From NCBI RefSeq assembly GCF_024346675.1, contig NZ_AP024851.1, forward strand, positions 1,364,001-1,428,000: a stretch of 64,000 nt of DNA, written 5' to 3'. This document shows, piece by piece, positions 30,416-62,157 of this stretch (the stretch's first letter is position 1; each line of letters starts with the position of its first letter). Under the pieces are notes generated by a model. The model searched no databases and had not been told where the DNA came from. It saw only the letters and a list, made by a program, of their open reading frames with translations. Made by a program: the position numbers and the translations under genes. The DNA comes from Photobacterium sanguinicancri (GTDB taxonomy: Bacteria; Pseudomonadota; Gammaproteobacteria; Enterobacterales; Vibrionaceae).

Positions 30416-31963
30416 TTACTTATTCGGATTTTCTTTCAGTTTCTCCATCACTTGATCAAGCGAGAAACTGGCCGCTTCTTGTCTTGGAGGGAACTCTTGG
30501 AAGGTTTCCAAAAATTTACCAACATATGCTTGCGCTGGCACTAGCATGTACGCGCGATCTAACATCCAATCATAGTAAGTATTAGAAGTCACATCAGCGA
30601 TTTCGTATGGGTCCATACGCAAGTTGAAGATCTTAGGTACACGCAATGGGGTGAAGGGTTCAGCCCAAATACGTAAGGTCCCTTTCGCGCGCTGCTCTAG
30701 GAATACAATTTTCCAATTGTGGTAACGCAGTGAACTCAAATCGCCATCATCGGTGAAGTAGAAAATCTCTTCACGCGGCCCTTTTTCTTCGGTACCCGTT
30801 AGGTAAGGCAGGAAGTTATAGCCATCAAGGTGCACTTTGAATTTCTTATCACCCGCGCTGTAACCGTCTAGCAGTTTTTCTTTAATTTTGTCATCACCTG
30901 CGGCTGCCACTAATGTTGGCATCCAGTCCATGTGGTGCATGATTTCATTAGAGACAGATCCTGGTTCGATCTTACCCGGCCAACGTACCATAGCAGGTAC
31001 GCGATATGCCCCTTCCCAGTTGGTATTTTTCTCACCACGGAATGGCGTCAAGCCTGCATCAGGCCATGAATTCATATGTGGGCCGTTATCCGTCGAGTAA
31101 AAAACGATGGTGCTATCTTTGATGCCCAAGTCATCAACTTTTTTCAGTAGTACCCCCACATGATTATCATGCTCAACCATACCGTCTGCATAAAAACTGA
31201 TCCCTGTTTTCCCTGAGTTTTCAGCTTTCACATGCGTACGGAAATGCATTCGAGTCGCATTCCACCAAACAAAGAAAGGTTTTTCAGCTTTAACTGCGCG
31301 ATCCATGAAGTCTAATGCGGCATCAAGGGTTTCATCATCGACCGTTTCCATCCGCTTACGTGTTAATGGGCCCGTATCTTCGATTTTGCCATCTGCATAA
31401 GATTTAATTACCCCACGAGGGCCGAATTTTTTACGAAATTCAGGGTCTTTCGGGTAATCAACATTCTCAGGTTCTTCCTCGGCGTTCAAATGATAAAGGT
31501 TGCCAAAAAATTCGTCGAAGCCGTGGTTCGATGGAAGATGTTCGTCTTTGTCACCTAGGTGGTTTTTACCGAACTGCCCTGTCATGTAGCCAAGGGGTTT
31601 CAGCATTTCCGCGATGGTAGCGTCTTCTGCTTGTAAGCCTAAATCCGCGCCAGGTAACCCCACTTTACTTAAACCTGTTCGCAGTACCGATTGACCCGTG
31701 ATGAAAGTAGAACGACCCGCGGTGCAAGATTGTTCACCATAGTAATCCGTAAACATCATGCCTTCTTTGGCAATACTGTCGATATTCGGTGTTTTGTATC
31801 CAACTAAGCCAAAGGTGTAAGCACTAATATTGGTTTGCCCAATATCGTCCCCCCAAATAACCAATATGTTCGGTTTTTCTGCTGCGATGCTGCTACTTGT
31901 CGCGCCAATCCAAGCGGCGGCAAGAATCGCTAATCGGCGTTTAACGCCATATTTCGCTGTCAT
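30416..31963 (-). CDS. Cys-type sulfatase A, exported
   Basis: Family S1 sulfatase of 515 aa with signal peptide (LAILAAAWIGATSSSIAA). The residue to become formylglycine is Cys80 in GEQSCTAGRSTFITGQ, a CxAxR form of the CxPxR motif; metal ligands include the Asp pair in VIWGDDIG and the later FYSTDNGPH. GKNHLGDKDEHLPSNHGFDE and NLYHLNAEEEPE are shared with its neighbour. The ATG at 31963, preceded by AGAGG, is preferred over a frame start six codons earlier. The sulfated substrate is unknown. It is divergent from the second sulfatase over a 425-bp gap and probably activated by the anSME at 16-17.5 kb. Confidence 0.92.
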   Translation of the reverse strand: MTAKYGVKRRLAILAAAWIGATSSSIAAEKPNILVIWGDDIGQTNISAYTFGLVGYKTPNIDSIAKEGMMFTDYYGEQSCTAGRSTFITGQSVLRTGLSKVGLPGADLGLQAEDATIAEMLKPLGYMTGQFGKNHLGDKDEHLPSNHGFDEFFGNLYHLNAEEEPENVDYPKDPEFRKKFGPRGVIKSYADGKIEDTGPLTRKRMETVDDETLDAALDFMDRAVKAEKPFFVWWNATRMHFRTHVKAENSGKTGISFYADGMVEHDNHVGVLLKKVDDLGIKDSTIVFYSTDNGPHMNSWPDAGLTPFRGEKNTNWEGAYRVPAMVRWPGKIEPGSVSNEIMHHMDWMPTLVAAAGDDKIKEKLLDGYSAGDKKFKVHLDGYNFLPYLTGTEEKGPREEIFYFTDDGDLSSLRYHNWKIVFLEQRAKGTLRIWAEPFTPLRVPKIFNLRMDPYEIADVTSNTYYDWMLDRAYMLVPAQAYVGKFLETFQEFPPRQEAASFSLDQVMEKLKENPNK

Positions 31964-32388
31964 ATAAACCTCTATCTCCAATAGAAATAAGCTTCCTGCA
32001 CAAAAAGATATAGTTCACAAAATAAACAATTGCGAATCACTTCATGCACAGAAGACGCATATCTATGCTTCTACCCGCTTCACTAAAAACCAGATCACTC
32101 TCACAAGCAAATAAACCGCAGCAAGGTATTAACAAGGAATGGATTCTTTATTTTTAGAAGGTATTCGAAATAGGCATGCGTGATCTAAATCTCGCTTTAC
32201 TCGAAAGCACTCTTGATAGAATTCAATGGTAAAACCAATGAATACAGCGAGTTAACAAGTCACTATAACTATTGTTTATAACCACTATAAAGCGACAATT
32301 TTCAATTACATCATTAACTTATTAGCCAACGACAGCACAGGCGCTTACTTGTGCTTCACTTTCAACTCTTAACTAATTTGGAGTTTTT
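31964..32388. other. Divergent promoter region between the two sulfatases
   Basis: A 425-bp AT-rich gap between divergent sulfatase starts. I see no gene of convincing quality (the longest frame with an ATG is under 20 codons) and no clear palindromic operator. It must contain promoters for both sulfatases. Confidence 0.5.
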
Positions 32389-33954
32389 ATGGCTTACCAA
32401 ATGAGCAAACTGGCCGTCAGTATTGGTGTGCTGGCAACGTCTGGCGCAGCAGTTGCGGCAGATCAGCCAAACATCCTTGCTATCTTCGGCGATGATGTCG
32501 GTTACTGGAACATCAGTGCTTACAACCAAGGCATGATGGGGTACGAAACCCCCAACATCGACCGTATCGCGAATGAAGGTGCACTATTCACTGATCACTA
32601 TGGTCAGCAATCTTGTACTGCGGGGCGTGCCGCGTTCATAACCGGCCAAGAACCGTTTCGTACCGGCTTGTTAACTATTGGTATGCCAGGTTCAGATCAG
32701 GGCATTCCTGACTGGGCCCCAACCATTGCCGACCTTTTGAAAGACCAAGGTTACATGACGGCGCAATTTGGTAAAAACCACCTTGGTGACCAAGATAAAC
32801 ACCTACCCACTAACCACGGTTTTGATGAATTCTTTGGTAACCTTTACCACTTAAACGCAGAAGAAGAGCCTGAAACTTACTACTACCCGAAAGATCCAGA
32901 GTTCCGCAAGAACTATGGCCCACGTGGCGTTATCAAGTCTTTCGCTGACGGCAAGATTGAAGACACAGGCCCAATGACGCGCAAGCGCATGGAGCATGCT
33001 GATGAAGAGTTCCTAGAAACGTCACTGGCATTTATGGAAAAAGCGGTGAAAGCCGACAAACCTTTCTTCATTTGGCACAACACCACACGTATGCACGTTT
33101 GGACGCGCCTTCAAGAGAAGTACCAAGGCAAATCAGGTATCAGCATCTATGCCGATGGCATGTTAGAGCACGATGACCAAGTCGGCATCTTATTAGACAA
33201 ACTTGATGATCTTGGCGTAGCCGATAACACCATAGTTATTTACTCAACCGATAACGGTGCTGAAACCGTATCTTGGCCTGACGGCGGTGCGACACCATTC
33301 CACGGTGAAAAAGGCACAACATGGGAAGGCGGGATGCGTGTTCCTCAGCTTGTTCGCTGGCCTGGCGTCATTGAACCGGGCACTAAAATCAACGAGATGA
33401 TGGCGCACCAAGATTGGCTACCAACCTTGCTTGCTGCCGCTGGCGTTGACGATGTGAAAGAGAAACTTGCGAAAGGCTATAAAGCCAATGGTAAAGAGTG
33501 GAAAGTACACATTGATGGCTACAACTTTAAACCTTACTTCCAAGGTAAAGAAGAAAAAGGCCCACGTGATTCACTACTCTACTTTACAGCGAATGGCGAA
33601 TTAAATGCCGTGCGCTGGAATGACTGGAAACTGCACTTCGCAACGCTTGAAGGTAACATTACTGACGCCGTACGTTTCTCACCAAACTGGCCGAAGATCA
33701 TCCACCTACGTGCAGACCCATTTGAAAAAGCACCACACGAATCAGGCATGTACCTACGTTGGATGGCAGATAACATGTGGTTATTCGTACCAATTCAAGA
33801 CGTGCTAGGTGAGTTCTTCCAAACATTACCAGATTACCCAATGCAGCAAGGTGCGATCATGAACCCAGCTAGCATTAACTACCAATCGCTAGGTCTTAAA
33901 GCCAAAATGAATCAACTTGATGAGCTACAAAAGAAAGTAGCGACGATGAAGTAA
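32389..33954 (+). CDS. Cys-type sulfatase B, exported
   Basis: Second family S1 sulfatase, 521 aa, clearly a paralogue of its divergent neighbour: both share NISAY, GYxTPNIDxIAxEG, YGxQSCTAGR, FITGQ, GKNHLGD and FGNLYHLNAEEEPE. Formylglycine precursor Cys76 lies in QQSCTAGRAAFITGQE; metal ligands are in AIFGDDVGY and VIYSTDNGAE. It has a signal peptide (VSIGVLATSGAAVAA) and GGAG five bases before the ATG. Differences in the substrate-facing segments (for example TRMHVWTRLQ against TRMHFRTHVK) suggest different or complementary sulfated substrates. Confidence 0.93.
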   Translation: MAYQMSKLAVSIGVLATSGAAVAADQPNILAIFGDDVGYWNISAYNQGMMGYETPNIDRIANEGALFTDHYGQQSCTAGRAAFITGQEPFRTGLLTIGMPGSDQGIPDWAPTIADLLKDQGYMTAQFGKNHLGDQDKHLPTNHGFDEFFGNLYHLNAEEEPETYYYPKDPEFRKNYGPRGVIKSFADGKIEDTGPMTRKRMEHADEEFLETSLAFMEKAVKADKPFFIWHNTTRMHVWTRLQEKYQGKSGISIYADGMLEHDDQVGILLDKLDDLGVADNTIVIYSTDNGAETVSWPDGGATPFHGEKGTTWEGGMRVPQLVRWPGVIEPGTKINEMMAHQDWLPTLLAAAGVDDVKEKLAKGYKANGKEWKVHIDGYNFKPYFQGKEEKGPRDSLLYFTANGELNAVRWNDWKLHFATLEGNITDAVRFSPNWPKIIHLRADPFEKAPHESGMYLRWMADNMWLFVPIQDVLGEFFQTLPDYPMQQGAIMNPASINYQSLGLKAKMNQLDELQKKVATMK

Positions 33955-34079: not shown

Positions 34080-37000
34080 TTATTTACCAATAACAGGGAT
34101 ACCCGTTCCGCGTTGCGCTGCGCGAGGCATGACAAATACCACTGGCGTCCACGCAGGGATCGTTAACACTTCACCGTCTGCTTTGGCACCTTTGGCTAAA
34201 TCAGAATGGTGTAGTGCACTCACTTGTAGCCCTTTAACCCCTTTGAGGGTAAAGGTTTTAGAAGTACTTGACGCATTAATCGCCACGACTAAAGCGTCTT
34301 TCTTAGGATCAATATCGACACCCGCACCAATACCGTTATCGATGCTCATCACAATTAAACCTGGCTGTTGTTTTGGTCCTGTATTGTGAAAATCGATACG
34401 TTTGTTCACTTCACTGCCTTTACCTAAAGTCAGTAATGGGTAAGCTTTACGTAGTGCTGCCATTTCTTTGTAGTACACCGCCATATCTTGAATGTTTTCA
34501 GGTGCAGGCTGTGCATCCAAACCGCTGCGAGTAATAACGTCATTGATTGCATCGTAGTTATCACTATCTTTATCTTTACGCGGTAAGCCCTTGTTCCAAT
34601 TATTACCTTGGTAAGTAAAATCAACATGGTTATACCAATCACCAGAATCGTAAGAATCTCGCTGCATTGATTTAGAACGCAATAAATCCGAACCCATATG
34701 AGTAAATGGCACGCCTTGACCTAACATTGCGGTTGCTAACGACACGGCTTGCATACGTACACGTGTATCAATCGATGTTGCATCTGGCGCTTTATACTGG
34801 GTGTTATCCCACAACGTTTGGTTATCGTGTTTCGACACGTAATTCTGCACCTCTGTAGGATCATCGGCATAGCCTGCAGCTTGACCGTTATAATCCAGCT
34901 GCTTACCCGTGATTGCCTTGCCGGTAGCATCAATAAACGTGAATGTTTTGATATTCCCAGCCATACCTAAACGCGTCAAATCCGCTAGATGAAGGCGTGA
35001 TTTAACAACATCAGCATCAGTTTGGTCGTTCACACCATTACCAAACCCTTTATTAGTTCGCAGCGCATCACCACTATCAAATGGGCCACCACCACGAACG
35101 GCATCACGTAGGCGATCCGAGAAGCTACCAATACCGGTTCCACCTAAGTGTTTTTGCGTCGCTTGCACAAACAACTTGTCGTTTTCTACTTCACCAAAGT
35201 TCCAGCCTTCACCATAGAAGTAAGTATTTGGGTCAACACGTTTTACCGCTTCAAGCGACTCTTCGATTTGTGCTAACGGGTGATGACCCATTAAGTCAAA
35301 GCGGAATGAATCAATCTTGTAATCACGCGCCCAAACCACCAGCGAATCTTTAATTAACTTGGCCATCATGGCATTTTCAGGAGCCGTATTAGAACAACAG
35401 GTGGAATTTTTCACCTGCCCTGTTACTGGGTCTAAACGGTTGTAGTACCAAGGTACAATCTTATCCAATACCGATGTGTCAGCCGTAGGGCCAGCGGCAT
35501 TCGTATGGTTATACACCACATCCATCACCACGTTCATTCCAATATTTTCTTTAATCGATTGGATCATTTCACGGGTTTCAAGAATCCGTTGTGTTCCCTC
35601 TGGATTAGTCGAGTACGAACCTTCAGGCACTGTGTAATGGAATGGGTCATATCCCCAGTTGAATCCATCAGTAGAAGAAACATAACGGTTCAACTCCTGA
35701 ACAACTGGATTGGCGGGTGTATCGTTATCGCGCTCGATTTCAAGTACTTCAGCAATCGTCAAACCAGACATGCAATAGTTGCTAAAGCGCGACGTAGTAA
35801 TCGCTTTATTGACGTTACATAACTTACTGAAAGACTCATCGATATTCGCAACTTTTGACGGATCTTCTTCGATGGTCGCAATATCAAAAATAGGCAATAA
35901 ATGTAAGTGAGTCACACCACTTTCGCTGAGCGATTTTAGATGTTGTACAGGTGCACTATCATCATCGGTAAATGCGGTGAATTTACCGCGGTCTTCGGCA
36001 GGTACGGATTCATCTAGAGCAGAAAAATCGCGGACATGTGACTCATAAATCACGAACTTCGCAGGATTGTCTTGAGCAATAGGCGCTTTTAAGCTGTCCC
36101 AACCAGCAGGTTTTAATGCGGGATCATTCAAATTAACGACTTGGCTGTATTCAGAGTTGCGAGATAAACTCAATGCATACGGGTCAGTCACCTGATAGCT
36201 TTCCACCTTACTTGAAACTGGATGGACAACATTCACTAGGTAACGATAGTAAGTACCGCTCGGTGCTTGATTGGTATTCACCGACCATACACCAGACTCA
36301 GCCTGATAAGCCATTTGTAATCGGCCCAGTTCTTTTTTGTCTTGATTAAACAGTACAGCAACCACGTTTTGTGCCGATGGTGCCCATAATCGGAAACTGG
36401 TGTTAATACCGTCTGTAATTGCGCCAAGTTCGATATCTTTTGCTTTATCTGCAAACAGATTATCTAAACTGCCCGCCGACTGTACTTTAGTTGCAGCAAG
36501 CACATCGCCTTTGTCATCAACTGCAATAGCCACTAATTCAGCTTTCACAATCGGACGCATATTGATTTTAGGATCTATGCTGTAAGCCGTTTTGTTCGCA
36601 AACTGCGGGTATTTTCTTGACGCTTCAACTGAAAGTGTACCTGCAGATAATTCAATATATTGGTTAGTAAACTGGTAATTATCACCTTTAGGTTCCACAT
36701 CTGATGCGAGCGATAGATACAAGCGCACATCTTTTGCCCCTGTCGCACCGTCCCACACTAAAGTATGTGCATCCACTAGGTGCGCTTCAGCATTGGCAAC
36801 ACCCGCCAACGACAAGAAGGCTTCTTCGCGGCTATCATAAGGTTCGGTCACACCAGGGGTTAATGAACCAGTACGATCGGTAATAGTGTCAAAATCAAAC
36901 TTCACATTTTCGGAAAGTTTATCTGTCCCTTTTCTTACTATGATGTTCATACAGTTTGGCGAAGCGTTTTGCAGTGGTAACTTCCAGTACGGGCCGTTAC

Positions 37001-37406
37001 TATCAGAACCTGTCGGCGTATTGACGACTTTACTCCAGTCATGATCAATTAAGGTTTTACCCGCTCGTTTACACGTATCATCATTCCAAATGTATAAGTT
37101 GTAATCACTATAATCTTTCGACGAAGTCTTAGCTGATGCTCCTTCAGGGGCTTTTTCAACTAAATATAAAACAGCCTCACCATTACCCGCTTTAGCAGGC
37201 TCATCCACTTTACCTGTGGCTTTTAGTTTCGCGATAGGGCCTGATGTTTCAGGAATTACGATATTTATTTGTGGCGGATTAGTGGTATCAAAATAACTGT
37301 CCTTGTTACCACTGTTATTATCATCACTGCTATTACATCCCGTTAGTGCTGTTGCGTAGAGTAATGGGATTATAATTTGTGCCGTTTTAGACAGAGTAAA
37401 TTTCAC
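34080..37406 (-). CDS. pulA: Pullulanase-type alpha-1,6-glucosidase lipoprotein
   Basis: 1108-aa lipoprotein (lipobox LTGC, Cys24) of GH13 subfamily type I pullulanases, which debranch alpha-glucans at the cell surface. An N-terminal beta region with a CBM41-like segment (YNLYIWNDDTC) is followed by a CBM48-like domain at about 330-430 (FRLWAPSAQNVVAVLF) and the catalytic barrel: region I VMDVVYNH (627-634), nucleophile Asp704 in FRFDLMG, acid Glu733 in YGEGW, and Asp861 in SKHDNQ. The pullulanase mark YNWGYDP appears as FNWGYDP. The start codon is GTG with AAGGGA seven bases upstream. It probably works with the GH13 enzyme at 58-60 kb. Confidence 0.94.
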   Translation of the reverse strand: MKFTLSKTAQIIIPLLYATALTGCNSSDDNNSGNKDSYFDTTNPPQINIVIPETSGPIAKLKATGKVDEPAKAGNGEAVLYLVEKAPEGASAKTSSKDYSDYNLYIWNDDTCKRAGKTLIDHDWSKVVNTPTGSDSNGPYWKLPLQNASPNCMNIIVRKGTDKLSENVKFDFDTITDRTGSLTPGVTEPYDSREEAFLSLAGVANAEAHLVDAHTLVWDGATGAKDVRLYLSLASDVEPKGDNYQFTNQYIELSAGTLSVEASRKYPQFANKTAYSIDPKINMRPIVKAELVAIAVDDKGDVLAATKVQSAGSLDNLFADKAKDIELGAITDGINTSFRLWAPSAQNVVAVLFNQDKKELGRLQMAYQAESGVWSVNTNQAPSGTYYRYLVNVVHPVSSKVESYQVTDPYALSLSRNSEYSQVVNLNDPALKPAGWDSLKAPIAQDNPAKFVIYESHVRDFSALDESVPAEDRGKFTAFTDDDSAPVQHLKSLSESGVTHLHLLPIFDIATIEEDPSKVANIDESFSKLCNVNKAITTSRFSNYCMSGLTIAEVLEIERDNDTPANPVVQELNRYVSSTDGFNWGYDPFHYTVPEGSYSTNPEGTQRILETREMIQSIKENIGMNVVMDVVYNHTNAAGPTADTSVLDKIVPWYYNRLDPVTGQVKNSTCCSNTAPENAMMAKLIKDSLVVWARDYKIDSFRFDLMGHHPLAQIEESLEAVKRVDPNTYFYGEGWNFGEVENDKLFVQATQKHLGGTGIGSFSDRLRDAVRGGGPFDSGDALRTNKGFGNGVNDQTDADVVKSRLHLADLTRLGMAGNIKTFTFIDATGKAITGKQLDYNGQAAGYADDPTEVQNYVSKHDNQTLWDNTQYKAPDATSIDTRVRMQAVSLATAMLGQGVPFTHMGSDLLRSKSMQRDSYDSGDWYNHVDFTYQGNNWNKGLPRKDKDSDNYDAINDVITRSGLDAQPAPENIQDMAVYYKEMAALRKAYPLLTLGKGSEVNKRIDFHNTGPKQQPGLIVMSIDNGIGAGVDIDPKKDALVVAINASSTSKTFTLKGVKGLQVSALHHSDLAKGAKADGEVLTIPAWTPVVFVMPRAAQRGTGIPVIGK

Positions 37407-57792: not shown

Positions 57793-60471
57793 TTACTCAC
57801 TTAAAATGATGACGGGGAGGTTATCCCAAATCTTGGGTTCTGATGTATCGTTACCGGTGAAATTCCACGGTCCTTTTTGGGTGTCTAACGGACGGTAGAC
57901 AGCCGATAATCCGTCGATATCCCATGTTGTGACATAAATGCTGATACCGTCAAGCGAATTGGGGCGGCCAAGTGCATCACTAGCAAAATCAAGATAAATC
58001 GCTTTGTTAGCTTTATCTACAGTGACAACGGGGGCGGGTGATACGGTTTCTCCCCATGTTTGTGAATCTGCGCCTGTTGAGCTGTAGATTGAGCTTTGCC
58101 AGCCAAATATCACCGCGTTTCGATTCCAAGTGCCAGAAGGCATTTCTGCATTGAGCTTCGGCAGTGCTGTTAAGCCAGTCTTACTTTCATTGGGCAAACC
58201 AATAAAGACTGAAAAACCGACATGGTCAAAGCCGTTGGGTGGTAACCAGCTGTTGGTGACGTTATTCATGGTCATTTTTAAGCGTACGTTACTGCCCACG
58301 GTATAGATCTCGGCTTTTTCAATCGAGAGCTGATTCTTATCTTTATCAAAAGAGGGATCGGTAGGTAGAGAATAGGAGCCGTATAGTCCGCCACTACCAT
58401 CTTGAGCATCACCTGTATCATCAATGATTTTCTCGGGTGTTTCCGCCCATGAAAGATCGGAAGTGAATGCAATATCTTTAGTGCCTGCTTTATCTTCAGG
58501 GTAGTAAATCGCAAAGCGATGTTGTTGTTCACCGATGGCAAAATGACGGATCGAAATGGTGGTTTTCCAGTCTCCGTTAGCATCAACAGGTATGTCTTTT
58601 GCTACGCCTAAATTACCATCTACGACCATTTTTAATGTCACATTGGGTGTTGCTGTCCCGGTTATTTCAGTATCTTGGGTGATTACCGCGTTATCCCAAT
58701 TTCCCTCTAATTCGACTTTTGTATCCGGGGTATCGATATTGCCTGCTTGGGATGTTTTAAAGTAAATCACCGCAGATTTTGGAGCCAGTTCGAGGGTGAC
58801 TTGACCATGACTATTGGTTGTCAGTATTTCTGGTGCGCCTTGCCAGTTGGATTGAATCTGTCGTTCAAAAACCGTTCCTGCATCTTGCTCTAAGTCTAAC
58901 TGGTTTAACAGCATAGGAGACGACGAGGTATTCAAGACAACGAACACTTCTTCATCATTTAAACGACGAGTGAAACTGAATATACCGGCTCCTGCTTTAT
59001 CACTGGCGATGACTTTCAATTCACCTCGTGTAAGCACTTTGTTTTCTGTACGAAGCTGGGCCAATGATTGAATAAATCGGTACATCTCGTTGCTTGAATC
59101 GAAAGAATCGACAAGTTGACCGTCAGTGCGATAGCCGCCGTTAAACATACTATCGCGGCTATTGATGATAGCTTGCTCAGTACCCTGATAAATAACCGGA
59201 ATGCCGGGCACTGTCATCATGGTAATCAAGGCTTGCTGCATATCTTCTGGGCTAGCCTGAGACAAAAAGCGAGGCATGTCATGGTTATCGATAAAGTTCG
59301 GCATGATGTAAGGGTTAGGGAACATTTCCATCATACGTTCTAGGCGAAAGCGTAAATAATCCGTCGGTTGGCCTGATGCAAAAACACGGGTCATGGTGGT
59401 TTGGAGCGGAAAGTTTAATACTGAGGTTAACTGTGCCGGAGAGCCATTTTCACCAATATAGGTGAGCATTTTTTCCTCCCCTTCTGTCTTGTACGGCGTC
59501 GATGCCTCAAAGACTTCACCGAAGGTTAGGAAATTTTCACGTCCTGTTTCTTTTGCCTGTGATAGTACGCCGTCTTGACTGTGAAAGAAATCGTTCCAGA
59601 AATCGTGTTCAACAAACTTGGCGGTATCTACCCGGTATGCATCAACACCGACGTCTTTAATCCATTTACGGTAGCTCGCTTTAAGGTACTTTCTGACTTC
59701 TAGATCAGAAGTATTGAGATCATCCAAATCGGAGAGTTGCCATGTTTTTTCTTGTGTCGGATTATTGTGATCGGTAATGCTTGGTGTCCAATGGTAGCTA
59801 CCTGTGCCGTCGTCTTTGCACTGGTTCTGATTCAGAGGATATGGTAGGGATTGATTAGATGCCAATGCATTTTCAATTAGACGGAAACCGGCACAAGGGT
59901 TTAAAGCGTCATAATCGTACGGGTTATCGTAAGTGAAAAAGTTACCAACATGATTCGTCACAATGTCTTGGATGAGGAACATATTTCGGCTGTGTATTTC
60001 ACGAGAAAGTGCTTGGTAATCTTCTAAATCCCCGAAATGCTCATCCACTTTCTGAAAATCACGCGCCCAGTAGCCATGATAACCACCGTAATTCTGTTCT
60101 GAATCCCACCATTGGTTTGCCACAGGCGGAGTGATCCATACAGATGTTGCTCCTAAATTTTGGATGTAACTAAGCTGATCGGTAACGCCTTGTAGATCAC
60201 CGCCGCTGAATTTTTTGTCCGATGTCGGATCGTATTCATTTTGGCCTTGGTCATTATTCTGGCTATTTCCATCGCTAAATCGATCGATCATGAGAAAGTA
60301 GATGATTTGGTCTTGCCAGTCAGGTGATGCCACCTGATTATCAACTGGCGCCACAGTGTTGTCATCTATTTCGATGGCATTATTGTCTGAATTACAGCCT
60401 GTTAAGGCTAACGCTATCGATAAAGTTAAAAACTTTATTTTATTCATTGTGTTAGGTGTTTTCAGTCTCAC
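57793..60471 (-). CDS. GH13 alpha-amylase-type lipoprotein with glucodextranase-like C-terminus
   Basis: 892-aa lipoprotein (lipobox LTGC, Cys26). The GH13 barrel starts DQIIYFLMIDRFSDGN; catalytic residues are Asp282 (DAYRVDTAK), Glu319 (LTFGEVFEAS) and Asp398 (FIDNHDMPRF), with region I QDIVTNHVGN. A beta-sandwich at about 610-700 (ITGTATPNVTLKMVVDGNLG) resembles glucodextranase domain B, and the last ~190 residues (GLYGSYSLPTDPSFDKDKNQ, GISIYVTTWDIDGLSAVYRP) the glucodextranase C-terminal sugar-binding module. It should hydrolyse alpha-glucans at the cell surface. GTG at 60471 has AGGGGA seven bases upstream; the ATG eight codons later has none. It is downstream of, and parallel to, the AraC-CBM gene. 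Confidence 0.9.
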   Translation of the reverse strand: MRLKTPNTMNKIKFLTLSIALALTGCNSDNNAIEIDDNTVAPVDNQVASPDWQDQIIYFLMIDRFSDGNSQNNDQGQNEYDPTSDKKFSGGDLQGVTDQLSYIQNLGATSVWITPPVANQWWDSEQNYGGYHGYWARDFQKVDEHFGDLEDYQALSREIHSRNMFLIQDIVTNHVGNFFTYDNPYDYDALNPCAGFRLIENALASNQSLPYPLNQNQCKDDGTGSYHWTPSITDHNNPTQEKTWQLSDLDDLNTSDLEVRKYLKASYRKWIKDVGVDAYRVDTAKFVEHDFWNDFFHSQDGVLSQAKETGRENFLTFGEVFEASTPYKTEGEEKMLTYIGENGSPAQLTSVLNFPLQTTMTRVFASGQPTDYLRFRLERMMEMFPNPYIMPNFIDNHDMPRFLSQASPEDMQQALITMMTVPGIPVIYQGTEQAIINSRDSMFNGGYRTDGQLVDSFDSSNEMYRFIQSLAQLRTENKVLTRGELKVIASDKAGAGIFSFTRRLNDEEVFVVLNTSSSPMLLNQLDLEQDAGTVFERQIQSNWQGAPEILTTNSHGQVTLELAPKSAVIYFKTSQAGNIDTPDTKVELEGNWDNAVITQDTEITGTATPNVTLKMVVDGNLGVAKDIPVDANGDWKTTISIRHFAIGEQQHRFAIYYPEDKAGTKDIAFTSDLSWAETPEKIIDDTGDAQDGSGGLYGSYSLPTDPSFDKDKNQLSIEKAEIYTVGSNVRLKMTMNNVTNSWLPPNGFDHVGFSVFIGLPNESKTGLTALPKLNAEMPSGTWNRNAVIFGWQSSIYSSTGADSQTWGETVSPAPVVTVDKANKAIYLDFASDALGRPNSLDGISIYVTTWDIDGLSAVYRPLDTQKGPWNFTGNDTSEPKIWDNLPVIILSE

Positions 60472-60524
60472 GTTATAATCCCCTGCCTACAAAACTGTGT
60501 GAACAATAACGGGAATTCAACGCG

Positions 60525-60704
60525 ATGAGAGTGTCACTCTACGCCATTATATTGGTTGTGGTGTGTCAGTTGGTGCTAAATATGAGCCTGTTATCATTTT
60601 CGCTGGCTATGAAAGTGGCGAAAGAAATAGATAGTCGTGTTGATAGTTATCACATCGCTGGTGTTCACCTTGCTGAGAAATCAATTCAAAATGACATTTT
60701 TTAG
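60525..60704 (+). CDS. Possible 59-aa membrane protein, antisense to the regulator 3' end
   Basis: Frame starts MRVSLYAIILVVVCQLVLNM, then SLLSFSLAMKVAKEIDSRVD and SYHIAGVHLAEKSIQNDIF: one hydrophobic helix followed by a polar tail. GGGA lies 11 bases upstream of the ATG, which is far. The last 98 bases overlap the AraC-CBM gene on the other strand. The hydrophobic part lies in the intergenic gap, which is why it is listed, with low trust. Confidence 0.3.
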   Translation: MRVSLYAIILVVVCQLVLNMSLLSFSLAMKVAKEIDSRVDSYHIAGVHLAEKSIQNDIF

Positions 60705-62157
60705 GTCGTTCAGTTAGATACGTTGATAGAGACCAAGATGAAAATTGACGGTTTTGGTTTGTTTTTGTCATAGCCCAACGGTTATTTTCTTGACCATCAA
60801 TATGACAATGAATGATTTCAGTATCAGGCAGGCGGCATGCAAGCTCTATAACAACACGAACGCCTTCCATTTCGGGGACGACGACAAGGGTAGGTACGAC
60901 AACAATAGGATGGCCTAATAGAATCGGTTCGTTGACGACATAGTTGTGTTGAAGGTTATCATCGATGAATTGATTGCCATCGACTTCGTAGCATAAGCGA
61001 AAGCGTAATGGATTAGCGACAGGTAGGTTTGCGGTTGACCAAAGCTCAATACCATCAGCCAGGAAGTAATCGAAAAAGGCGGGATAGCGGCGCCATACAC
61101 CGTCTCTGTCTTCACACTCAACCGCCACTTTTTTTTCAAACGCTATATTATTGACCTCAATCCATACTCTGCCACTTTGACCTTGTTTGGCGGCACTTGA
61201 TTCTATAACGGCAGTGGCGTAATGCAGCCTGATGGGGTTTTCTTGTTGAACGGTTCGATTGGTTCGATTGGTTCGATTGGTTCGGCATTGTTCACGGTAC
61301 ATTTGAGGGGTAAATGGATACCACTTTCGAAATGCGCGGTGAAAGTTTGAAGGATCATCATAACCTAGCTGATTAGCTATGTTGGATACGCTCAATTGTG
61401 TATCGGCCAGTAGACGTAAAGCGGTGGCTTTTTTTTCATCATCAACAAGTGTGGTGAAGTTGATTTGTTTTTCTTGTAGGCGCCGTTGCAGTGTTCTGGG
61501 TGATAGCCCTAGATCAACCGCTAAATCGGATAAACGTAAAGGTGAACTAATGTTGTCATGGATACGTTTTTTTAATCGAGAGACCAGATCTTCTTTTTCA
61601 ATACGGACGTGCTGTAGCAGTAAAAAAAACTGCTTAGCGAGAGAAAATAACTTGGCATCGGGTGTTGCGCTAACCTGAATTTCTTGATGGTCAAAATGCA
61701 GTTGTAGCGACTTTCCGTATTCATTACGAATTAAATAGTTGCGTTGACTAGGGGTTTGCAGCCAAGTATGCGTTAAGTGAGTAAATGAAGAAACGTGCTC
61801 GAGTAAATCTTGGGTCAGGTAGTGCACCCACAAAGGCAATTCAGTATTTGTTCGTGATTTAAAATGTAGCGATAGGCTGTCATAGCGAGATGCAGGTTCA
61901 ACATAGATTGAACGATCGTACAATGACACAGATTTGCTCCACCAAAGTAATCCTTCTTTGATTGTTGGGGCTGTTAACAGCAACAGATGTTGTAAGGAAA
62001 GTAATTCCTCGATGTGCCAATGATCATGACCAATTCGAAAATAGGAACTGCCTACTGCTTGAGAAAGCATTACGGAGAAAGGTTTTTGGGCGTTCACGAT
62101 TTTTCCATTGTCAGGATAACATGCGCGTATTTTAGCGGAACCGTTACTATGAAGCAT
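60607..62157 (-). CDS. AraC-type regulator fused to CBM21-like alpha-glucan-binding domains
   Basis: 516-aa protein of unusual architecture. Residues 1-185 look like the Arabinose_bd-type AraC N-domain; residues 190-292 are the double AraC HTH (LRLSDLAVDLGLSPRTLQRR; SVSNIANQLGYDDPSNFHRA). A linker RTNRTNRTNRT (292-302) leads to a beta domain at about 325-410 with the CBM21 pattern: VNNIAFEKKVAVECEDRDG, then WRRYPAFF, LRFRLCYEVDGNQF and DDNLQHNYVV. Residues 430-515 repeat this weakly (IHCHIDGQENNRWAMT, CDNYQHDYLF). CBM21 binds starch and glycogen. There is no signal peptide, so I infer a cytoplasmic regulator that contacts glycogen or maltodextrin directly and controls the GH13 gene next to it. 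Confidence 0.85.
   Translation of the reverse strand: MLHSNGSAKIRACYPDNGKIVNAQKPFSVMLSQAVGSSYFRIGHDHWHIEELLSLQHLLLLTAPTIKEGLLWWSKSVSLYDRSIYVEPASRYDSLSLHFKSRTNTELPLWVHYLTQDLLEHVSSFTHLTHTWLQTPSQRNYLIRNEYGKSLQLHFDHQEIQVSATPDAKLFSLAKQFFLLLQHVRIEKEDLVSRLKKRIHDNISSPLRLSDLAVDLGLSPRTLQRRLQEKQINFTTLVDDEKKATALRLLADTQLSVSNIANQLGYDDPSNFHRAFRKWYPFTPQMYREQCRTNRTNRTNRTVQQENPIRLHYATAVIESSAAKQGQSGRVWIEVNNIAFEKKVAVECEDRDGVWRRYPAFFDYFLADGIELWSTANLPVANPLRFRLCYEVDGNQFIDDNLQHNYVVNEPILLGHPIVVVPTLVVVPEMEGVRVVIELACRLPDTEIIHCHIDGQENNRWAMTKTNQNRQFSSWSLSTYLTERPKKCHFELISQQGEHQRCDNYQHDYLFLSPLS
61252..61284. repeat. 9-bp tandem repeat encoding the (Asn-Arg-Thr)n linker
   Basis: GGTTCGATT three times plus a partial fourth copy, between the DNA-binding and carbohydrate-binding halves of the regulator. 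Unit length is a multiple of three, so copy changes alter only linker length. Confidence 0.9.

Follow-up and report, generated by a model that had tools for sequence, protein, structure and literature searches.

The window, a stretch of 64,000 nucleotides of Photobacterium sanguinicancri DNA, encodes an AraC-family regulator that carries a CBM21 domain behind its DNA-binding domain and adjoins the gene of a predicted GH13 alpha-amylase (Table 1). We consider it likely that this protein is a one-component cytoplasmic activator of the AraC type, dedicated to the adjoining amylase gene, which would sense maltodextrin or glucan via site II of its CBM21 domain. The architecture suggests a new route for the cell to sense alpha-glucans.

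Table 1. Features of the regulator and amylase genes (positions in the window)
Feature	Position	Strand	Basis
AraC-family regulator with C-terminal CBM21, 516 aa	60607..62157	-	ORF calling, Pfam, relatives
N-terminal effector-type domain, residues 23-185, distantly PF12625 'Arabinose_bd'-like, fast-evolving	61603..62091	-	
AraC-type double helix-turn-helix DNA-binding domain, residues 188-294	61276..61596	-	
CBM21 domain, residues 306-410, conserved site II N337, F340, K342, F362, E371	60928..61242	-	
Second C-terminal beta-sandwich, residues 417-514, weakly conserved	60616..60909	-	
GH13 alpha-amylase, 892 aa, GTG start, lipoprotein signal, predicted target gene	57793..60471	-	Pfam, solved relatives
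Predicted operator, direct repeat TGACAC (60563-60568) + TGGCGTAGAGTGACACTC (60529-60546)	60528..60568	-	conservation
-10-like hexamer TATTGT, exactly 20 bp after TGACACTC	60503..60508	-	spacing across loci

The open reading frame of the regulator is intact. It contains the double helix-turn-helix of the AraC/XylS family (Pfam HTH_18, E 5.5e-18), and a CBM_21 match follows in frame behind it (E 8.8e-5; 23.2 bits, below the gathering score of 28.9). Two relatives carry a precomputed PF03370 annotation. The homology of the domain to CBM21 is significant on the sequence level: a profile of 13 rows retrieves from the PDB the CBM21 of Rhizopus glucoamylase (E 1.1e-6), three chains of PP1 subunits (E between 5.9e-5 and 1.7e-4) and GM (E 0.51), and a profile comparison with the genuine CBM21 of a different protein (L027) gives a probability of 98.2 (E 5.3e-14). 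The beta-sandwich fold of CBM21 is recovered among the families listed by the structure searches. The original prediction of an AraC-type DNA-binding domain and then CBM21 in the same frame is borne out by the fold and by the conserved residues of site II, and no signal peptide is evident, as it had also stated. The protein of L027 (L027:7980-9494) comes from a Kiritimatiellae MAG and combines two CBM_21-matching stretches (E 2.6e-19) with an endonuclease/exonuclease/phosphatase domain; its gene adjoins a phospholipase-D-like gene.

Within the regulator family, CBM_21 is matched at E<=1 in 25 of 30 aligned rows, with a best value of 3.8e-6. Three diverged regulators (L059, L073 and L074) were added; L059 reaches only 0.0056, L073 and L074 have no CBM_21 match at E<=0.1, and in all three the domain rests on the alignment with the family. 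Weak matches to PF12625 are observed at the N-terminus in five of 30 family members (best E 0.0028), and in the L074 regulator (E 2.3e-4; 21.8 bits, below the cut-off of 27.6). The structure of CdpR (5chh) aligns with the regulator over residues 49-290 at an rmsd of 15.1, which indicates a domain-by-domain likeness at best. For the second C-terminal sandwich, a Pfam search with the window protein and the three diverged relatives finds no carbohydrate-binding family. The linker preceding CBM21 (61252-61284) contains a tandem in-frame N-R-T repeat, consistent with repeat slippage; it is longer than in the nearest relatives (516 versus 510-513 aa for the whole protein).

A homologue search returns 172 proteins at E<=0.001. 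Among the 120 matches listed, 84 cover at least 89% of the query, the named full-cover ones belong to Photobacterium, Psychromonas, Agarivorans and Vibrio, and the tail consists of plain AraC proteins matched via the helix-turn-helix. The nearest genome is that of Photobacterium sanguinicancri (L009, 99% protein identity), and named database entries label the homologues helix-turn-helix or AraC family proteins. A search with residues 306-516, limited to candidates sharing exact words, lists 17 proteins, all of the regulator's own family, and thus no other regulator architecture with CBM21. The genome-wide family search for PF03370, with 0/1 for the own genome and 0/14 for control genomes, carries no information either way. 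Among 72,556 plasmid records the regulator has no match at E<=1e-40. Judged from their reading frames, some copies may be broken: in Vibrio harveyi (L020) the open frame begins no earlier than the equivalent of residue 70 in the window protein, and the match in G171, one of the 15 family genomes described below, has an internal TAA stop. A cluster of five sequences on three contigs (P0096) joins the N-terminal half of the regulator in frame to the C-terminal part of GH13, which is what a deletion across the gene pair would yield; its regulator part is nearest to the Vibrio rows by eye.

Two ligand sites are described for CBM21. According to the accessible text of the Rhizopus study (PMC3398936), site I is formed by W47, Y83 and Y94 and matters most for granular starch, and site II is formed by Y32, F58 and Y67 with N29, K34 and E68 and acts mainly in the binding of soluble ligands. 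The accessible text on PTG (PMC9582199) names N177, F180, E181, K182, Y203 and D214 as site II residues and states that GM binds at site II only; site I is thus dispensable for CBM21 membership. We aligned 33 family rows (the 30 rows and the three diverged regulators), many of which are close relatives and not independent. The tabulation covers N29, Y32, K34, F58 and E68, five of the six site II positions named for Rhizopus. N29 corresponds to N337, with N in 32 of 33 rows, while Y32, K34, F58 and E68 correspond to F340, K342, F362 and E371, each kept in 33/33 (Y32 as F). The start of PTG site II, N-x-x-F-E-K, is identical in the regulator, and D214 aligns with E371 in the script alignment; the pairing of Y203 with F365 is a hand alignment, and the script places Y203 elsewhere. 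The aromatics of site I are not preserved as a set: W47 corresponds to W355 (27 W, 5 Y and 1 R in the 33 rows), but Y83 and Y94 correspond to R387 and I398. By these residues the soluble-glucan site appears to be kept and the granule site mostly gone. Since two of three site I aromatics are lost and site II is kept, soluble maltodextrin would be a likelier ligand than polymeric glucan. Of the claim that polymeric alpha-glucan is tied to gene control, the link between AraC and CBM21 is strongly supported, whereas the polymeric nature of the ligand is not, the Y83 and Y94 equivalents being aromatic in 0/33 rows.

These residues also bear on one of the two main rival explanations, in which CBM21 docks the regulator on glycogen, so that full stores hold it away from the DNA and depleted stores release it to activate the amylase gene. 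CBM21 does bring PP1 to glycogen in PTG, according to the accessible text of PMC9582199, and the genome encodes a glycogen synthase. However, the two lost aromatics belong to the site that is credited with granular and long-chain binding in the accessible parts of PMC9582199 and PMC3398936. Moreover, the target is a predicted secreted lipoprotein that would act on starch outside the cell, and an inducer read-out would be simpler for such an enzyme. We regard such a titration as unlikely.

The other main rival places a small-sugar effector in the N-terminal domain and treats the CBM21 sandwich as a remnant whose present role is limited to protein shape or dimerisation. The PF12625 likeness in a few relatives points in this direction, and extra C-terminal parts of AraC proteins can have a structural role. 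The domain identities argue otherwise. Between Photobacterium and Vibrio rows, the mean identity is 0.61 for CBM21 and 0.53 for the helix-turn-helix, but the N-terminal domain reaches 0.30 and the last domain 0.27 (L020 is excluded from all these means), which places the N-terminal domain with the least conserved parts and makes CBM21 the best conserved. The values for CBM21 and the helix-turn-helix are 0.68 and 0.71 against Psychromonas, 0.65 and 0.58 against Agarivorans, and 0.44 and 0.35 against the diverged rows; the N-terminal and last domains stay at or below 0.45 in all four comparisons. CBM21 thus appears about as conserved as the DNA-binding part, and more so in three of four comparisons. 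With the five site II residues also retained in 32-33 of 33 rows, a decayed CBM21 seems quite unlikely to us, and we retain the reading in which CBM21 binds the ligand.

The GH13 neighbour matches Pfam Alpha-amylase PF00128 (E 1.7e-50). Its residues 45-674 match PDB entries 43wj/9x8f with 1108.5 bits and its residues 582-892 match 9x81 with 455.2 bits, all named Alpha-amylase. Both the catalytic domain and a lipoprotein signal (LPAM_1, 20.2 bits, just above the cut-off of 20) are present in this predicted amylase. Nineteen regulator loci were retrieved, from which L027 was set aside as a different protein; the remaining 18 named loci (L009-L026) include two on short contigs (L009 and L016). 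In 18/18, GH13 is the next gene on the same strand, with a gap of about 65-170 bp. GH13 genes, here with a Glucodextran_C domain, also follow the three diverged regulators (3/3), and direct comparison of two of these enzymes with that of the window gives identities of 39% and 43%. The GH13 gene noted next to the regulator is thus its constant partner, and a link between the two is strongly supported by this pairing and by the conserved operator-like element described below. Across these 21 loci with 244 ORFs of at least 130 aa, the regulator and GH13 are the only families present at every locus. The next commonest, a 335-aa family, occurs at 11 of 21; because its window matches are only 24-30% identical, it is taken for a large superfamily.

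The same pairing is seen genome by genome. Of 296 genomes from the window's family, which we take to be Vibrionaceae, 15 contain the regulator (E<=1e-40) and the identical 15 contain GH13 (E<=1e-200), adjacent by coordinates in every case; some of them share their species with named loci. At the level of the order, 394 genomes yield 12 with the regulator (E<=1e-30) and 21 with GH13 (E<=1e-100): 11 genomes have both, ten have GH13 only and one (G550) has a regulator fragment only. Around GH13 in nine of the ten GH13-only genomes, no ORF of at least 130 aa has the regulator as best match at E<=1e-3. These counts suggest that the regulator implies the amylase and not the reverse, and that the enzyme family would not need the regulator, because such an ORF is missing in the nine loci examined. 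In three of the nine (L088, L091 and L096), an ORF of about 500 aa precedes GH13, presumably a flavin-dependent halogenase to judge from a motif at its start. The identities of regulator and GH13 correlate with r 0.89 over 210 pairs, a value weakened by the relatedness of the rows. G083 holds a second, diverged regulator with its own GH13 (L059:3905-8996; 1085 aa with an extra N-terminal part), which represents a duplicated unit. The fragment in G550 (L077; genome 85% complete) spans about 119 residues with one internal stop, and no GH13 match is found there at E<=1e-100; both genes may be going together.

A conserved element lies between the two genes. TGACAC is present in every one of the 18 intergenic regions and served as the anchor of an ungapped alignment. 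The regions share T-G-[AGT]-C-A at -32 to -28 (TGACA in 15/18) and TGGC at -10 to -7 in 18/18, followed by G in 17, and 35 of 90 columns are conserved in at least 15 of the 18 loci. A TAYYST hexamer follows the 8-base TGACACTC block at a distance of exactly 20 bp in 18/18 loci, as against at most 2/18 in 2000 single-base shuffles; the rows are related, which weakens this control, and it gives no probability. A strict 18-mer motif, derived from the same loci on which it was scored, is perfect in 14 of 18, with one mismatch in three and three mismatches in one. The element is kept in all 18 named loci and is absent from the three diverged pairs (5-6 mismatches). In the window's genome, the sole perfect copy of the strict motif is at the GH13 promoter. 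With up to three mismatches, 218 matches are found versus 194 for the reversed control, and we therefore take the only single-mismatch copy elsewhere in the genome (L029) as chance. This copy sits in the 3' terminal part of a short ORF that follows a gene resembling glutaminase by eye, and none of the three ORFs listed around it is a glucan gene. In the window, three copies occur at this tolerance where 2.4 are expected by chance, and only the GH13 copy is perfect. The suggested control of pulA finds no support here, as the two imperfect copies both lie away from it. The window does contain a secreted pullulanase-like GH13 lipoprotein of 1108 aa by eye (34080-37406), with no operator motif nearby. 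By eye again, 30416-33954 holds a divergent pair of sulfatase-like genes, both of 521 aa, near a multihaem cytochrome-like gene.

Counted from the -10-like hexamer, TGACAC falls near -40. The regulator would bind the direct repeat and reach about -40 from the amylase transcription start, as in class II activator geometry. Between 60400 and 60640, a consensus scan returns three promoter-like sites where 0.5 are expected: a single plus-strand site and, on the minus strand, 60503-60475 and 60465-60437. None is built on the TATTGT hexamer, and the scan lends no support to the proposed -10. An activator-dependent promoter need not match such a scan. It is also conceivable that the regulator is a repressor, or that the element serves another regulator and the pairing is mere co-transfer. 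The pair is patchy (15/296 genomes) and its surroundings differ, as for co-transferred genes, and the diverged pairs lack the element. However, the fixed distance to the -10-like hexamer with no good -35 by eye is usual for an activator site, and the pairing holds across the three diverged regulators. We therefore hold this explanation to be very improbable and favour a regulator that probably switches on the adjoining GH13 gene. Upstream of the regulator itself, no motif common to all loci is seen by eye among the output listed. The Vibrio-type loci (L018-L025) have, in addition, an inverted repeat in the operator region, CATTTCACG...CGTGAAATG in slightly varying form, which is not seen in the other genera.

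In the mechanism we propose, CBM21 would be the effector-binding domain of the transcription factor. The surface amylase would release maltodextrins, which would be imported and bind to site II; alternatively, long alpha-glucan chains already in the cytoplasm would bind there. The glucan-bound regulator would then activate the amylase gene in a positive feedback. The fast-evolving N-terminal and last domains would most likely serve dimerisation or ligand tuning. The genome encodes LamB, a glycogen synthase and a TPR protein of the MalT type. The ligand could therefore be an imported dextrin or glycogen, and standard mal regulation probably operates alongside the regulator. With less assurance, we lean towards a site II that catches the ends of long maltodextrin or glycogen chains and so sets AraC activity, reading chain length rather than maltotriose, in a portable two-gene sensor-plus-amylase unit. 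If true, a CBM inside a transcription factor would let the cell read longer glucan chains directly, and CBM21 would have a new role in bacteria, for which a clear promoter candidate is at hand. Being small, the unit could be used as it stands as a biosensor of maltodextrin or starch.

Each ingredient is known by itself (AraC proteins, CBM21, glucan control); their union in one protein is undescribed as far as our literature searches reach. Among the matches listed, in a search mostly outside subscription literature, no transcription factor with CBM21 or another starch-binding module is described, in line with the original prediction; the accessible part of a review (PMC11046441) contains neither 'CBM21' nor 'AraC'. 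The two-component system XydS/R, by its title, controls CBM6-containing proteins (PMC3572039) and has polysaccharide-responsive control of CBM-bearing proteins in common with our case, but the CBMs are on its targets and not on the regulator. Compared with AraC/XylS regulators of the CdpR, GadX, Rns and MelR type, the helix-turn-helix is not C-terminal here, as about 220 residues including CBM21 come after it. With the CBM21 of Rhizopus oryzae glucoamylase and of the PP1 subunits PTG, GL and GM, the regulator shares the fold, N-x-x-F-E-K and the F362/E371 site II residues; it differs in being bacterial, in its fusion to a DNA-binding domain, in having no evident signal peptide and in the large loss of site I. 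Described control of starch use in bacteria generally reads small sugars, as in MalT, a maltotriose-dependent activator that also needs ATP, reads cytoplasmic maltodextrin and turns on maltodextrin genes. The proposed likeness lies in this cytoplasmic read-out and activation, but the ligand domain of MalT is unrelated to CBM21. The BZR1-BAM transcription factors of plants, with their beta-amylase-like domain, likewise fuse a starch-active protein domain to a DNA-binding domain, although theirs is an enzyme-type domain that works in the plant nucleus, and the folds are unrelated.
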